64,000 nucleotides of DNA, taken from contig NZ_JANHAW010000002.1 in the NCBI RefSeq assembly GCF_024464595.1, positions 62,001-126,000 on the forward strand, read 5' to 3'. Within the stretch, counting starts at the first letter, position 1, and each line of letters starts with the position of its first letter. The notes under the pieces are model-generated. The model saw only the letters and a list, made by a program, of their open reading frames with translations. It was not told where the DNA came from and did not search any database. Origin of the DNA: Halobellus litoreus. GTDB taxonomy: Archaea > Halobacteriota > Halobacteria > Halobacteriales > Haloferacaceae. Positions 5,520-52,554 of this stretch are shown in pieces. The position numbers and the translations under genes are program-made.

Positions 5520-5527
5520 TTTATATG
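5520..5527 (+). promoter_or_regulatory. TATA box of RNA-like element A
   Basis: TTTATATG lies exactly 30 bases before the GTG that opens element A. The same spacing (30 bases) occurs at the element near 50.69 kb, and a 28-base spacing at the one near 38.98 kb. The position fits an archaeal TATA box that starts transcription at the element's first bases. Confidence 0.6.
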
Positions 5528-5549
5528 CGATCGGGCGGCCATCCTTCCC

Positions 5550-5690
5550 GTGCGCTGACGCTGGCCTCGCGTCGGGCGCGGTTGTTCGGCACGTCGACGC
5601 GGGGGACGGTCGTCGTCGCGGGCGCGGGCGGGTCGCGCTTCGGCGTCGCGAGCGGTGTGCCGACTGTTCGCCCATTCTGCGACCCGCTTC
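5550..5690 (+). ncRNA. Candidate structured RNA, element A
   Basis: This stretch has no plausible ORF but closely matches the stretch at 50692-50826. Shared parts are the GTGNNCTGA opening (5550-5558), a block of about 36 bases at 5567-5602 that differs from its partner by three bases and one gap, and the closing segment GTGCCGACTGTTCGCC (5657-5672). TCGGCAC (5586-5592) can pair with GTGCCGA (5657-5663), and inside that CGACGC (5595-5600) can pair with GCGTCG (5643-5648). It has its own TATA box. Downstream, a small hairpin CCGCT/AGCGG lies just before the bolA promoter. Function is unknown; a known RNA family cannot be excluded. Confidence 0.55.
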
Positions 5691-38858: not shown

Positions 38859-38944
38859 CGCGCTGTGCCGGGATTTCGGCACCGACTGACGCGCTGCAGC
38901 GCTCCGTCGGCTCCGATCGGGACGGACCGCAGCGCGGCCGGACG

Positions 38945-38952
38945 TTTTTACG
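38945..38952 (+). promoter_or_regulatory. TATA box of RNA-like element C
   Basis: TTTTTACG lies 28 bases (from its TTTA) before the GTG that opens element C. It corresponds to the boxes of elements A and B. Confidence 0.55.
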
Positions 38953-38974
38953 CCAGGACGAGACCACACCCGGC

Positions 38975-39070
38975 GTGACCTGAACGCGGGCCGCGACGGT
39001 CACGGCGGGTGCGCGGCGCGCCGTCGCGGCCGAAGCGGGACTGCGCCGCCTGTTCGCCACCGTCGTCAGC
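38975..39070 (+). ncRNA. Candidate structured RNA, element C
   Basis: This gap sequence opens with GTGACCTGAACG (38975-38986), which differs by one base from element B. It ends with CTGTTCGCCAC (39050-39060), identical to B. The middle differs: GGCCGCGACGG (38989-38999) is an exact 11-base inverted repeat with CCGTCGCGGCC (39021-39031). In addition GTGACC (38975-38980) can pair with GGTCAC (38998-39003), overlapping the first stem, so two foldings compete. No ORF is plausible. It lies downstream of rtcB on the opposite strand. Confidence 0.5.
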
Positions 39071-39102: not shown

Positions 39103-40620
39103 TCAGCCCTTGATGTTGCAGACGGGGAACGTCCGGGCGACCTTGTCGCCGATTCCCAACTCGTCGGAGACGCGAACGACCTCGTCGACGTCCTTGTAGA
39201 CGCCCGGCGCCTCCTCGGCGACCGTCGCGCCCGACTGCGCCTTCACGTAGATCTTCTCCTGATCGCGGAGTTCGTCTCGGACCGTCTCGCCCCAGTACTC
39301 GTTCTTCGCCTGCGTCCGACTCATCGTCCGACCGGCGCCGTGCGCCGTCGACCCGAAGGACACCTCCAGAGAGCGCTCGCCGCCGCGGAGGACGTACGAA
39401 CCGGCTCCCATACTGCCGGGGATGATGATCGGCTGGCCCACGTCGCGATAGGTGGCCGGCAGTTCCGGTCGGCCGGCGGGGAACGCGCGCGTCGCGCCCT
39501 TCCGGTGGACGTAGAGCTCCCGCTCCGCGCGATCCACCGCGTCGTCGGGCGCGGCGGGTCGACCGTCGTCGTCGACGCCGACCTCGTGCACTTCTTTCTT
39601 CCCGATGTTGTGCGCGACGTCGTAGAGCAGTTCCATCTCCATCGACTCCCAGTCGCGGTCGAAGACCCGCTCGAAGACGCGCCGAGTCCGGTGCATAATC
39701 AGCTGCCGGTTCACCCACGCGAAGTTGATCGCGGCGCACATCGCCCCGTAGTACCTCTCGGCCAACTCCGAGCCCGCGGGAGCGGCCGCCAGTTCCTTGT
39801 CCGGAAGCTCGGCGAGGAGATCGGCGTGCTCCTGTTCGATCCGTCGGAGGTAATCCGTACAGATCTGGTGACCCAGGCCGCGGGACCCACAATGGATCAG
39901 GACCACGATCTGATCGGCTTCGAGTCCAAACTCCGCGGCGACCTCCGGGCGAAAGACGTCGGTGACGCGCTGGACCTCCAGGAAGTGGTTCCCGGAGCCG
40001 AGGCTGCCGATCTGGTTCTTCCCGCGGTCCTTGGCCTTCTGCGAGACCGCGTCCGGGTCGGCGTCGGGCCGCATTCCCTCGTCCTCGCAGTGTGTGAGGT
40101 CCTCCTCGACGGCGTACCCGTGTTCGAGCGCCCAGTCGACGCCGCGATCAAGGATCTCTTCGAGCGTGTCGCGGTCGGATTCGACGATGCCGCCGCCGCC
40201 GAGTCCCGACGGCACGTTCGCGAAGAGGGCGTCGACGAGTTCCTCCTCGTGGCCGACGACGTCGTCGTAGGTCAGGTTCGTCCGCATCATCCTGACCCCG
40301 CAGTTGATGTCGTAGCCGATCGCCCCCGGCGAGATACAGCCCGTCTCCACGTCCGTCGCGCCGACGCCGCCGACGGGGAACCCGTAGCCCTGGTGCCCGT
40401 CGGGCATACAGATCGCGTGATCCGCGATCCCCGGCAGATGCGTCGCGTTTCTGAGCTGCTGGAGGGTCTTGTCGTCGCCGATCTGTTCGAGCAGCGCGTC
40501 GCTGGCGAGGACGCGCGCGGGGACGTTCATCTCCCCCTCGCGTGGAATCTCCCAGACGTACTCTCGGACTCGTTCCAAGCGGATGCCGCCGTATTCGCGG
40601 ACGTCCCGATTGTCGCTCAT
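39103..40620 (-). CDS. rtcB: RtcB tRNA-splicing ligase
   Basis: RtcB joins RNA ends with 2',3'-cyclic phosphate and 5'-OH, used in archaeal tRNA splicing and RNA repair with GTP and Mn2+. The 505-residue protein has the full set of motifs: HAICMPDGHQGYGFPVGG, AIGYDINCGVRMMRTNL (metal Asp and Cys), LIHCGSRGLGHQICTDYL and FGSTAHGAGRTMSRTQAK. The C-terminal GVYKDVDEVV and PVCNIKG are also family features; the family's His nucleophile lies in the AHGAGR region. Transcribed alone. Element C is in its downstream gap. Confidence 0.97.
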   Translation of the reverse strand: MSDNRDVREYGGIRLERVREYVWEIPREGEMNVPARVLASDALLEQIGDDKTLQQLRNATHLPGIADHAICMPDGHQGYGFPVGGVGATDVETGCISPGAIGYDINCGVRMMRTNLTYDDVVGHEEELVDALFANVPSGLGGGGIVESDRDTLEEILDRGVDWALEHGYAVEEDLTHCEDEGMRPDADPDAVSQKAKDRGKNQIGSLGSGNHFLEVQRVTDVFRPEVAAEFGLEADQIVVLIHCGSRGLGHQICTDYLRRIEQEHADLLAELPDKELAAAPAGSELAERYYGAMCAAINFAWVNRQLIMHRTRRVFERVFDRDWESMEMELLYDVAHNIGKKEVHEVGVDDDGRPAAPDDAVDRAERELYVHRKGATRAFPAGRPELPATYRDVGQPIIIPGSMGAGSYVLRGGERSLEVSFGSTAHGAGRTMSRTQAKNEYWGETVRDELRDQEKIYVKAQSGATVAEEAPGVYKDVDEVVRVSDELGIGDKVARTFPVCNIKG

Positions 40621-50092: not shown

Positions 50093-50620
50093 GTGACTGC
50101 CGAGCGCGACACGGACGAGCGCGGCGACGACCCCCGCGACCGAGACGTACGAGAGCGGGAGCCCCGAACCGGCGTGTTCGTCGTCTCGACGGACGCCGAA
50201 CGCCGGGCTGCGTTCTCGATCCGCCGGGAGGTCTTCGTCGACGAACAGGGCGTCGACGAGGGTATCGAGTGGGACGAGCACGACGAACCCGGGGCGGACG
50301 CGACCCACTTCGTTGCCTACGACGACGGCGACGTCGTCGGCGCGGCGCGGTTCCGAGCCGTCGACGCAGACGCCGACGAATCGGCGACGGGCAAGGTCGA
50401 ACGCGTCGTCGTCGCCGCCGACAGACGCGGCGAGGGTTGGGGCCGTCGCGTGATGGACACCGTTGAGTCACACGCTCGCGAGGCTGGGTTCGATCGACTC
50501 GAACTCCACGCGCAGACGCCCGTGCAGGAATTCTACGAAACGCTCGGATACGAGGCCTACGGCGACGAATTCGAAGAGGCGGGAATCCCGCACGTCGAGA
50601 TGGCGAAAGCGCTGTCGTAG
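50093..50620 (+). CDS. GNAT acetyltransferase, ElaA-like
   Basis: From GTG 50093 the product has 175 residues. It has the ElaA/GNAT pattern AFSIRREVFVDEQGVDEGIE near the N-terminus, HFVAYDDGDVVGAARFRAVD, the acetyl-CoA loop KVERVVVAADRRGEGWGRRV and the C-terminal FDRLELHAQTPVQEFYETLG. It should acetylate a small amine or protein N-terminus; the substrate is unknown. The first 25 residues are a disordered Arg/Asp stretch and the true start may be later. It is followed by RNA-like element B. Confidence 0.82.
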   Translation: MTAERDTDERGDDPRDRDVREREPRTGVFVVSTDAERRAAFSIRREVFVDEQGVDEGIEWDEHDEPGADATHFVAYDDGDVVGAARFRAVDADADESATGKVERVVVAADRRGEGWGRRVMDTVESHAREAGFDRLELHAQTPVQEFYETLGYEAYGDEFEEAGIPHVEMAKALS

Positions 50621-50661: not shown

Positions 50662-50669
50662 TTTATCAG
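50662..50669 (+). promoter_or_regulatory. TATA box of RNA-like element B
   Basis: TTTATCAG lies exactly 30 bases before the GTG of element B, the same distance as in element A. Confidence 0.6.
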
Positions 50670-50691
50670 CGATCCCGGGACCAGCACCCCC

Positions 50692-50838
50692 GTGATCTGA
50701 ACGCCACCCCGCGTCGGGTCGCGGTTGCTCGGCACGTCGGCGCGGGACAGAGCCGACGCTCCCGCCGTTGCTGCCGTCCTCAGCGCCGGCGATGCCGTCG
50801 ACCTGCGGGTGCCGACTGTTCGCCACGGCAACGCGACC
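50692..50838 (+). ncRNA. Candidate structured RNA, element B
   Basis: This intergenic stretch opens GTGATCTGAACG (50692-50703), carries the central block matching element A (50711-50746) and ends CTGTTCGCCAC (50816-50826). TCGGCAC (50729-50735) can pair with GTGCCGA (50809-50815), and GTCGGCGC (50736-50743) with GCGCCGGC (50783-50790, one G-U pair). In the equivalent helix of element A one base pair is A-U instead of G-C, a compensatory change. A 5' hairpin GTGATC (50692-50697)/GGTCGC (50717-50722) is also possible with two G-U pairs. It lies between a GNAT gene and the convergent elp3 stop. Confidence 0.6.
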
Positions 50839-50844
50839 CGGAAG

Positions 50845-52554
50845 TCACGACAGCGGCTTGGAGACGTACGGCCCGTCCTGGTGGTAGCCGAGCTTCTCCC
50901 GGTAGTACTCCCGCGCGCCGATGCCGGAGATGATCGCGAGTTTCCCGTAGCCGGCATCGGCGGCGAGTTCCTCCGCCCGGCGGATCAAGCGTCGCCCGTA
51001 GCCCCTGTGCTGCCACTCGCCCTCGCCGCTGCCGATGCCGGCCTCGCTCCCGTAGACGTGGAGTTCCCGGACGATAGCCGCGTCCGTCAGTTCTCGACGG
51101 ACCGGGTCGTTCGGGAATCGGAGCCGACAGAACCCGACGAGCAGATCCTCGACGGGGTCCTCGAACGCGAGGAAGTGCTCGGTCCCGCCGGCGACGTCGT
51201 AGGTCGTCACGTTCAACTCGACTCGCTCGGGGTCGGGGTCGGCCTCGTTCATCCCGGCCTCGCGGGCACGGATGTCTCGGAGGTCGATCCCCTTCTCTTC
51301 GGCCCGCTGCGCGGCGAGCTGCCGGAGGTTCGACTTCCAGACGCCGGCGTCGATGAAGTCCGCGGGGATGTCGCGTTGGACGCGCTGCAGTCGCGTGTAC
51401 TCTGGGATCATCCCCATCACCTCGCTCACGATCTCGGCGGCCTCCTCGTTGCCCAGCGGCTCGAACTCGTCGCGCCGCCACTGATCGTAGACACGCGTCC
51501 CGCGAACGACGAGCGTCGGGTAGATCTTGAGGTAGTCCGGGCGGTACTCCTCGCGCTCGAACAGTTGCCGGAAGTCCTCGAGGATCATCTCCTTCGTCAT
51601 CCCCGGTTGTCCCGGCATCATATGGAAGCCCACTTTGAAGCCGGAATCGCGGAGCCTGCGGTTCGCGTCGATCGACGCCTGCACGCCGTGACCGCGGTGC
51701 ATCTCGCGATTGATCCGCTCGTAGGTCGTCTGAACGCCGACCTCCACTTTGGTCGCGCCCAGATCCAGCATCCGGTCGATCTGCTCGGGATCGCACCAGT
51801 CGGGCTTCGTCTCGAACGTCGTGCCGATGTTCCGGATGTCGGCCGTCTCGTTCTCGGTGATCACGTCTTCGACGTAGCGGAACTCGACGTCCTCGGGGTC
51901 CGGCTTGAACGACTGATCCTCCGCTGGCGAGGGCTCGGAGTCGAGGTCGTAGTCGTTCAACGCCTCCAGGGCGCGCTTGACGAACCACTCCTGGTAGTCG
52001 TGGCTGCGCGCGGTCATCGTCCCGCCCATCAGGATGAGTTCGACTTTGTCGACGGGGTGCCCGATGTGTCGCAGCTGTTCGAGGCGGAGCGTCACCTGTC
52101 CGTAGGGGTCGTACTCGTTCTGCTCGCCGCGCGCTGCGGCCGGTTCGTGGCCCGTGTAGGACTGCGCGGAGTCGAACTCCGAGGCCGGACCGCCCGGACA
52201 GTAGAGGCACTTCCCGTGCGGACACATCTGCGGCGAGGTCATAATCGCCACCGGGGAGACGCCCGAAGCGGTTCGGACGGGCTTGCGCTGGACGACCTCC
52301 TTGACCTCCTCGCGTCGACCCTGCGGCGCGTGCTGGAGGATCTCCGCGTTCTTCGGGACCTTCGGCGAGGAATGCGTCGAGCAGGCGTCGAGCTTCGCGG
52401 ACTCCAGATCGTCGCGTCCGACGTCGCCGTCCAGGATCCGCTGAACGAGGTCCTCGCAGGTGCGTCGGAACGCCTCGGTCTCCGTCGGGTCTGATTCCCC
52501 CTCTGACCCGGGCTCGGGATCGGCGTCGGCGCTCACCGGCGAAGCACCTCCCAC
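50845..52554 (-). CDS. elp3: tRNA uridine-34 acetyltransferase Elp3
   Basis: Archaeal Elp3 makes the carboxymethyl-type modification of wobble uridine 34 in tRNA using acetyl-CoA and SAM. The 569-residue protein has an N-terminal helical and tRNA-binding part, the radical-SAM region with CPHGKCLYCPGGPASEFDSA holding the cluster cysteines (CX4CX2C), GGTMTARSHDYQEWF and MPGQPGMTKEMILEDF, and a C-terminal GNAT domain with YGRRLIRRAEELAADAGYGK and REYYREKLGYHQDGPYVSK. Length fits archaeal Elp3. The start at 52554 may be about 18 bases later (GTG). Element B lies in its downstream gap. Confidence 0.96.
   Translation of the reverse strand: MGGASPVSADADPEPGSEGESDPTETEAFRRTCEDLVQRILDGDVGRDDLESAKLDACSTHSSPKVPKNAEILQHAPQGRREEVKEVVQRKPVRTASGVSPVAIMTSPQMCPHGKCLYCPGGPASEFDSAQSYTGHEPAAARGEQNEYDPYGQVTLRLEQLRHIGHPVDKVELILMGGTMTARSHDYQEWFVKRALEALNDYDLDSEPSPAEDQSFKPDPEDVEFRYVEDVITENETADIRNIGTTFETKPDWCDPEQIDRMLDLGATKVEVGVQTTYERINREMHRGHGVQASIDANRRLRDSGFKVGFHMMPGQPGMTKEMILEDFRQLFEREEYRPDYLKIYPTLVVRGTRVYDQWRRDEFEPLGNEEAAEIVSEVMGMIPEYTRLQRVQRDIPADFIDAGVWKSNLRQLAAQRAEEKGIDLRDIRAREAGMNEADPDPERVELNVTTYDVAGGTEHFLAFEDPVEDLLVGFCRLRFPNDPVRRELTDAAIVRELHVYGSEAGIGSGEGEWQHRGYGRRLIRRAEELAADAGYGKLAIISGIGAREYYREKLGYHQDGPYVSKPLS

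Follow-up and report, generated by a model that had tools for sequence, protein, structure and literature searches.

A GNAT acetyltransferase gene (50093-50620, plus strand) precedes element B and an Elp3-type gene (50845-52536, minus strand) follows it in a stretch of 64,000 nucleotides of Halobellus litoreus DNA, which we analysed at its full length and refer to as the window. The initial annotation described B, together with a similar element A, as an RNA composed of two nested helices and possibly a hairpin at the 5' end, and every sequence quoted for B was found where it had been placed. The features that we assign to B and to its relatives in the window, namely A and a diverged third copy C, are as follows.

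50662-50691, plus strand: predicted promoter of copy B, conserved among copies, with the TATA box TTTATCAG (50662-50669), CGA, GGGACCA with its CCA at 50681-50683, and a pyrimidine at position -1
50692-50700, plus strand: two-codon open reading frame GTG-ATC-TGA of copy B, at the predicted transcription start
50708-50716, plus strand: 5' strand of helix H1 of copy B, CCCGCGTCG (from covariation)
50721-50727, plus strand: conserved loop motif GCGGTTG of copy B (from sequence conservation), whose GCG may form three base pairs with CGC of the 3' motif
50729-50735, plus strand: 5' strand of helix H2 of copy B, TCGGCAC, originally described as part of an outer helix (from covariation)
50738-50746, plus strand: 3' strand of H1 of copy B, CGGCGCGGG, containing the CGGCGC originally assigned to an inner helix (from covariation)
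50747-50808, plus strand: hypervariable loop of copy B, a segment that is usually hairpin-capable and differs between orthologues
50809-50815, plus strand: 3' strand of H2 of copy B, GTGCCGA (from covariation)
50816-50824, plus strand: conserved 3' motif of copy B, CTGTTCGCC, where conservation stops
5520-5673, plus strand: copy A, with the TATA box at 5520, GTGCGCTGA at 5550-5558, H1 formed by 5566-5574 with 5595-5603, and H2 formed by 5586-5592 with 5657-5663
38943-39060, plus strand: diverged copy C, with GTGACCTGA at 38975-38983
38990-38998 with 39022-39030, plus strand: H1 of copy C, GCCGCGACG pairing with CGTCGCGGC
39013-39019 with 39043-39049, plus strand: H2 of copy C, GCGGCGC pairing with GCGCCGC

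Copies of the element and search models

A BLASTN search of the same genome with element B as the query yielded 43 matches. The copies align from the TATA box to CTGTTCGCC, that is, from 50662 to 50824 in copy B, and conservation is absent outside this block. A covariance model built from 36 copies of this genome (R1) gave 51 matches in it at E < 1e-5, and a broader covariance model (R2), applied to fetched loci, also gave 51, the weakest of them with an E value of 5.5e-5; a second half-match in L045 and a weak second match in L063 were excluded from the copy count. Judged by its sequence, element B belongs to a structured RNA gene family with 51 copies in a Halobellus-like genome, and A, B and C are the members located in the window. 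No match to any of the 4227 families of Rfam 15 was found at the gathering threshold across the window that holds the three copies, and a tRNA search of the window found none.

Two alignments were used in the structural analysis: 1) alignment A1, which contains 36 of the 41 copies first found, with L019, L024, L026, L039 and L045 omitted on account of long loops or a failed parse, and 2) alignment A5, which contains 61 of 62 selected diverse homologues, L115 having been omitted by hand. Among 179 copies submitted to structural parsing, three had no parse and 11 of the remaining 176 were set aside as weak, which left 165.

The predicted fold

In copy B, CCCGCGUCG pairs with CGGCGCGGG to form H1, upstream of the helix first described as inner, and UCGGCAC pairs with GUGCCGA to form H2. 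As predicted from the alignments, the two helices cross and the fold is an H-type pseudoknot, which rules out a nested two-helix hairpin. Across the family H1 spans 8-11 bp and H2 about 7 bp, while the loop between the two 3' strands is hypervariable, ranging from 6 to 104 nt in the 165 parsed copies, and is followed by the constant tail CUGUUCGC. This loop also accounts for the unequal spacing of the 3' strands in A and B, which had been regarded as a weakness of the match. The motifs GCGGTTG and CTGTTCGC are strongly conserved in sequence and lie outside the helices. In L026 (1465-1673) the loop of 105 nt contains a long near-perfect hairpin with the ends ATACTGATTACTCTC and GAGAGTAATCAGTAT, resembling a small inserted palindromic element.

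The pairing is well supported by covariation. In the 36 copies of A1, 98.8% of the cells are paired and eight pairs are changed on both sides; the alignment exceeded all 500 shuffles in each of five measures. In the 61 diverse copies of A5, 92.7% of the cells are paired and 15 of the 19 pairs show changes on both sides (9 of 9 in H1 and 6 of 7 in H2). Cells with both-side changes number 165 in A5, compared with 48.0 (sd 5.5) in shuffled alignments, which ignore the tree, and 25-36 in six slid versions; the paired sites change together among homologues, as the initial annotation had anticipated for a genuine RNA structure. Copy C likewise differs from B by compensatory changes in both H1 and H2. 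By contrast, the three-pair extension GCG/CGC showed no covariation in the 61 diverse copies and was set aside as a conserved outer pairing.

With respect to the individual helices, the outer one proved sound. Pairs of TCGGCAC and GTGCCGA at this spacing occur at two places of the window, one in A (5586-5663) and one in B (50729-50815), compared with 0.02 expected from shuffled sequence; in the 36 copies of this genome 99.6% of its cells are paired with four of the seven pairs changed on both sides, and in the diverse set the corresponding values are 97.4% and six of seven. The inner helix CGGCGC/GCGCCG is not a conserved pairing: 13 of 40 copies have a six-base partner in the loop, compared with 4.4 when the loops are shuffled, and 27 have none, so that pairing of CGGCGC with the variable loop is possible as an alternative in some copies. 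Nor is the double change reported between A and B the relevant one, since the CGGCGC strand pairs instead with CCCGCGTCG, where the pair is U-A in A and U-G in B and hence altered on one side. The 5' hairpin GTGATC/GGTCGC can form in 4 of 40 copies, compared with 4.25 expected by chance. Consequently, what stands of the original proposal is an RNA structure revealed by compensatory change, with strong covariation; the nested arrangement of two helices and the 5' hairpin do not, the helices being crossed.

Oppositions of G-U and of A-C within the helices number 20 and 0 in A1 and 42 and 21 in A5. This excess of G-U points to an RNA made from the strand on which the copies are read, and we think that the weaker ratio in A5 is partly due to alignment slippage.

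Genomic context and inheritance

Seventy-one copies with called neighbours (40 in this genome and 31 in others) are intergenic; five of these touch the end of a gene that converges on them or overlap it by 1-11 nt. Among the 40 copies of this genome, 25 have a downstream gene on the opposite strand, and in the other 15 it is on the same strand and nearly always more than 50 nt away. The neighbouring genes of different copies are unrelated to one another, those annotated around the three copies of the window being GNAT, Elp3, BolA, TrkA, RtcB and DUF7117. A guide RNA of the TnpB/IscB-associated type would adjoin a tnpB or iscB gene, and neither is among the genes annotated around these three copies. 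A 5' leader or riboswitch was rejected given the opposite orientation of the downstream gene in 25 of 40 copies, including B, which precedes the minus-strand Elp3-type gene. More generally, a cis-acting terminator, insulator or leader of a neighbouring gene would agree with the frequent position of copies near the 3' end of a convergent gene, but the mixed downstream orientation, the distance to the genes on the same strand, the unrelated neighbours and the presence of a complete promoter of its own make such a role very improbable. We also observed that copy C ends 42 bp upstream of the RtcB ligase gene (39103-40620 of the window), and that an RtcB-like reading frame lies, by eye, a few genes away from the copy in L253 (genus g19 locus).

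Of 25 copies taken from other genomes of the genus, 17 match one of this genome's 40 loci over long stretches of flank, and the family is evidently inherited vertically at fixed intergenic loci. The site of B and the adjacent Elp3-type gene are common to L185, L187 and L191 (flanks shared on both sides) and to L085 (downstream flank). Orthologues retain the promoter, the start and stop codons and the pseudoknot and differ in the spacer, the loop and the 3' flank; a guide RNA that uses any of these three segments was rejected because orthologues do not conserve them.

About 50 dispersed copies, and about 70 identical nt shared by L012 and L018, would also be expected of mobile DNA of the MITE-like or SINE-like kind that carries a promoter and a hairpin by chance. 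We consider this reading barely probable: 17 of 25 copies occupy the same loci in other species and share flanks with a locus of this genome, conserved element ends are absent apart from the promoter and CTGTTCGC, no terminal inverted repeat was seen, and the helices in A1 covary with G-U and without A-C oppositions. A MITE or other transposable element was rejected on these grounds. As to L012 and L018, they are unlinked copies of this genome and their orthologues differ, and their identity suggests gene conversion between RNA genes. In L189 and L013, the RNA gene is inverted within the same gap of two related genomes.

Distribution among genomes

Matches to R1 were found in 182 of 293 Halobacteriales genomes and in 57 of 87 genera, which are lower bounds with ten candidates scored per genome. 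Within the genus, 11 of 16 other genomes match R1 with 19-59 copies each, and the RNA was not found in genomes G001, G008, G010, G012 and G016. Five chosen genomes of other genera contain 36, 18, 5, 3 and 2 copies by R2. In a draw from the whole phylum 33 of 294 genomes match, one of which, G333, lies outside the order; its match is marginal (E 6.8e-4) and was taken as chance. An exact-pattern scan of named genomes yielded 40 loci, of which 35 are haloarchaeal (Halorubrum, Halobellus, Haloparvum, Halopenitus, Halobium, Halorussus, Haloglomus, Natronomonas and one labelled Halobacteriales alone). All 35 match R1; the five bacterial loci match neither R1 nor R2 and were discarded. An exact-pattern scan of viral contigs found none, a blastn search of phage records found none, and plasmid records gave one, of Halobellus limi, with three places, a second query finding none. 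Copy number ranges from 2-3 to 59 per genome, which fits no simple dosage model.

The CCA-box promoter and its gene set

The weak matches of R1 are protein genes that carry the promoter of the RNA. A search with the promoter consensus, allowing three mismatches, found 41 sites in the genome and none with the reversed control, and most CCA-box sites in the genome belong to RNA copies. When a weight matrix with flexible spacing was combined with a following ATG or GTG, A, B and C were the sole sites in the 64 kb window. The same matrix places a site at the start of the ATPase gene and/or the DUF7310 gene in 28 of 30 orthologous ATPase loci and misses the NucS-N gene, where the spacing is longer. 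The protein-coding targets are the following.

DUF7310 coiled-coil gene
T2SSE-type ATPase gene; the next gene weakly matches T2SSF (24.8 bits, cut-off 25.2)
DUF7283-DUF7284 operon
Gene for a DUF7382 protein
Gene for a NucS-N and zinc-ribbon protein, adjoining a Hel308-like helicase
DUF7857 gene, with a MinD-like ATPase gene after it
Short reading frame ahead of an RPA-like gene

Another gene found through weak model matches (L218) encodes a short hydrophobic protein with no Pfam family. The CCA-box protein loci are L216 (G000:C2:806000-825000) and L217-L221. Sequence comparison supports a promoter class that includes T4P-type ATPase, pilin-like, ParA/MinD-like and ssDNA-binding genes, the protein genes being leaderless as predicted. 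Haloarchaea are known for gene exchange, and from its protein families the CCA-box gene set looks like an undescribed DNA-uptake or exchange regulon; our search of the literature found no support for this functional reading. As in the CCA-box operon, a coiled-coil protein and a secretion ATPase with a Cys-rich N terminus occur together in archaeal T4P clade 4F (PMC4858521), to which the operon may be assigned; the accessible text of that account makes no mention of an RNA.

The RNA and the ATPase are both present in 157 of 293 genomes, the RNA alone in 25, the ATPase alone in 39 and neither in 72, in a table that assumes both draws of 293 genomes to be identical and is confounded by kinship, G+C content and completeness. 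In G030, G061 and G126 the ATPase is present and the RNA was not detected, and the respective loci (L230, L232 and L228) keep the CCA-box promoter, which suggests that the protein part of the set is independent of the RNA. Because RNA copies hold most of the CCA-box sites of the genome, one could also suppose that they act as DNA, their promoters serving as decoys that titrate the regulator of the regulon. This supposition leaves the covarying helices and the start and stop codons unexplained, and we give it a very slim chance.

The two-codon reading frame

In copy B the GTG begins 30 nt downstream of the first T of the TATA box. A TATA box at this distance is the usual archaeal placement for a start site, and from the spacing we predict that transcription starts at the GTG; by extension, transcription should start at the GUG-NNN-stop of each copy. 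Protein genes with the same promoter have their start codon, ATG or GTG, at this offset or very close to it, so the start codon of the RNA is predicted to occupy a leaderless position.

Start and stop codons were tallied by model alignment after two duplicate rows had been removed, which reduced 196 copies to 194 distinct ones. The start position is occupied by GTG in 182 copies and by ATG in seven (189 of 194 in all), the stop position by a stop codon in 190 of 194 (TGA 165, TAG 19, TAA 6), and 185 of 194 copies have both and hence the sequence of a two-codon minigene. TGG was observed once at the stop position compared with 17.3 when the last two stop-codon columns are shuffled independently (minimum 11 in 10000), a comparison that counts sequences and not events. 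The three stop codons replace one another within orthologous loci, and the middle codon is variable, occurring in 21 kinds and being mostly a Thr or Ile codon. The nine copies that miss the strict read-out of start and stop are L212, L199, L256, L261, L187, L176, L167, L035 and L041, the last of which does so solely through an alignment gap. The stop is lost in L187, an orthologue of B, and the start is gone with the stop kept in two of the 51 copies of this genome, L199 and L212; the frame would thus be dispensable in some copies. L261 (1501-1613) reads ACG-ATG-TGA, where the start is shifted by one codon and directly abuts the stop. As the length of the frame hardly varies, there is still some chance that GUG-NNN-stop is a fixed sequence motif rather than a frame. 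Pairing of GTGATC with the 3' end of 16S rRNA was considered and rejected by eye, because GTGACC and GTGACG, which together are commoner, fit worse.

H1 starts 14-18 nt after the first base of the GTG, or 5-9 nt past the stop, in the 165 parsed copies, which would put its beginning approximately at the entry side of a terminating ribosome. Retroviral readthrough sites consist of a stop codon, a short spacer and an H-type pseudoknot, all of which this family shares. In contrast to those sites, the loop lengths of the family are not multiples of three and a conserved downstream frame is impossible, so readthrough into a longer protein is unlikely, and we rejected it.

The bar genes of phage lambda are two-codon minigenes that drain tRNA or ribosomes. 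If the present frame did the same, it could slow growth while the regulon is active, and the presence of up to 59 copies per genome, the prevalence of Thr and Ile at codon 2 and the accessible report that toxicity among E. coli minigenes is greatest for two-codon frames (PMC8708949) would agree with such a function. Against it, codon 2 varies among 21 kinds, GUG starts are weak, a covarying pseudoknot would be superfluous and some genomes have 2-3 copies only, and we therefore regard a drain as improbable. Two-codon minigenes in bacterial leaders, such as that of axe-txe, similarly consist of a start codon, one sense codon and a stop, and according to the accessible text of PMC8708949 they influence a downstream gene in cis or become toxic on over-expression. 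In this family, by contrast, an autonomous structured RNA is predicted to carry the frame at its 5' end, where many genera conserve it.

Proposed function and comparison with known systems

We propose that the RNA of this family acts in trans within the CCA-box regulon by means of a putative ribosome-engaged 5' end. The joint reading of the family as a large paralogous set of autonomous non-coding RNA genes with a leaderless start-stop and a trans-acting role in the regulon is, in our estimation, evenly poised between right and wrong. According to the proposal, the RNA would be transcribed from its own TATA/CCA-box promoter with its 5' end at the GUG, and a 70S ribosome would load on this 5'-terminal GUG, read one codon and terminate, with the pseudoknot located on the mRNA entry side. 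Engagement of the start-stop may give the 5' end protection and/or serve as a read-out of translation status, and it would keep ribosomes from unwinding the pseudoknot, which together with GCGGUUG/CUGUUCGC could form the binding surface for a partner; the weak GUG start would keep the engagement brief.

Brief docking of this kind is favoured by results from two organisms. Leaderless transcripts make up 72% of the protein-coding ones in Haloferax volcanii, where GUG is a weak start in the leaderless context (accessible part of PMC4983044), and in E. coli 5'-terminal AUGs bind 70S ribosomes, an engineered AUGxxxUGA partially restoring expression of ptrB (accessible part of PMC4965119). The latter construct has the same layout as the frame described here, with a start codon at the very 5' end and a stop as the third codon; it differs, as far as the accessible account goes, in being engineered on a protein-coding mRNA, in having AUG in place of GUG and in lacking a pseudoknot.

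The main rival to a ribosome-engaged 5' end retains the same RNA gene family and pseudoknot but has the RNA bind one of the proteins of the CCA-box regulon as a scaffold or regulator, for instance a protein from the pilus or DNA-handling machinery; the start-stop would then be a mere shield inherited from a leaderless promoter, at which arriving ribosomes leave at once. The conservation of GCGGTTG and CTGTTCGC outside the helices, the promoter shared with the protein genes of the regulon and the preference for the weak GUG are all consistent with a shielded scaffold, which we nevertheless hold to be unlikely, given that a 5' end free of start codons would suffice for it and 189 of 194 copies retain a start codon, ATG or GTG. 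Returning to the engaged 5' end, its most specific form is a dedicated, often high-copy haloarchaeal start-stop RNA in which a nine-nt two-codon gene parks or counts ribosomes against the pseudoknot, as the RNA arm of a T4P-type DNA-uptake or exchange regulon; we offer this form as speculation and rate it rather unlikely. If true, it would represent a class of RNA that joins an mRNA-like 5' end with a non-coding function. Few structured RNA gene families of haloarchaea would be more numerous than this one, so far without a covariance model, and it would provide both a natural test case for 70S initiation at a leaderless GUG with immediate termination and a handle on a conserved, unexplored regulon of pilus-type ATPase, pilin-like, ParA/MinD-like, NucS-N and RPA-like genes.

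Two known types of RNA were compared with the family and rejected. HDV-like ribozymes are nested double pseudoknots with a P3 hairpin between the 5' strand of P2 and the 3' strand of P1, and the junction between the 5' strand of H2 and the 3' strand of H1, at 0-4 nt in the 165 copies, leaves no room for P3. Box C/D guide RNAs have box C (RUGAUGA) near the 5' end and box D (CUGA); the 5' motif here is RTG-NNN-stop, its TAG and TAA variants break CUGA, and there is no Rfam match.

A literature search found no description of the RNA family or of the CCA box, with supplements and most subscription papers beyond its reach. We consider the RNA class new, with the caveat that three small RNAs of Haloferax volcanii, H225.2R, hts10 and htsf359 (PMC3956466), may be single members, the comparison being one of descriptions. 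Like the copies described here, these three are intergenic; the accessible part of that report describes for them no structure, start-stop or multi-copy family, and it records them in 19, 18 and 12 other haloarchaeal genomes, respectively.
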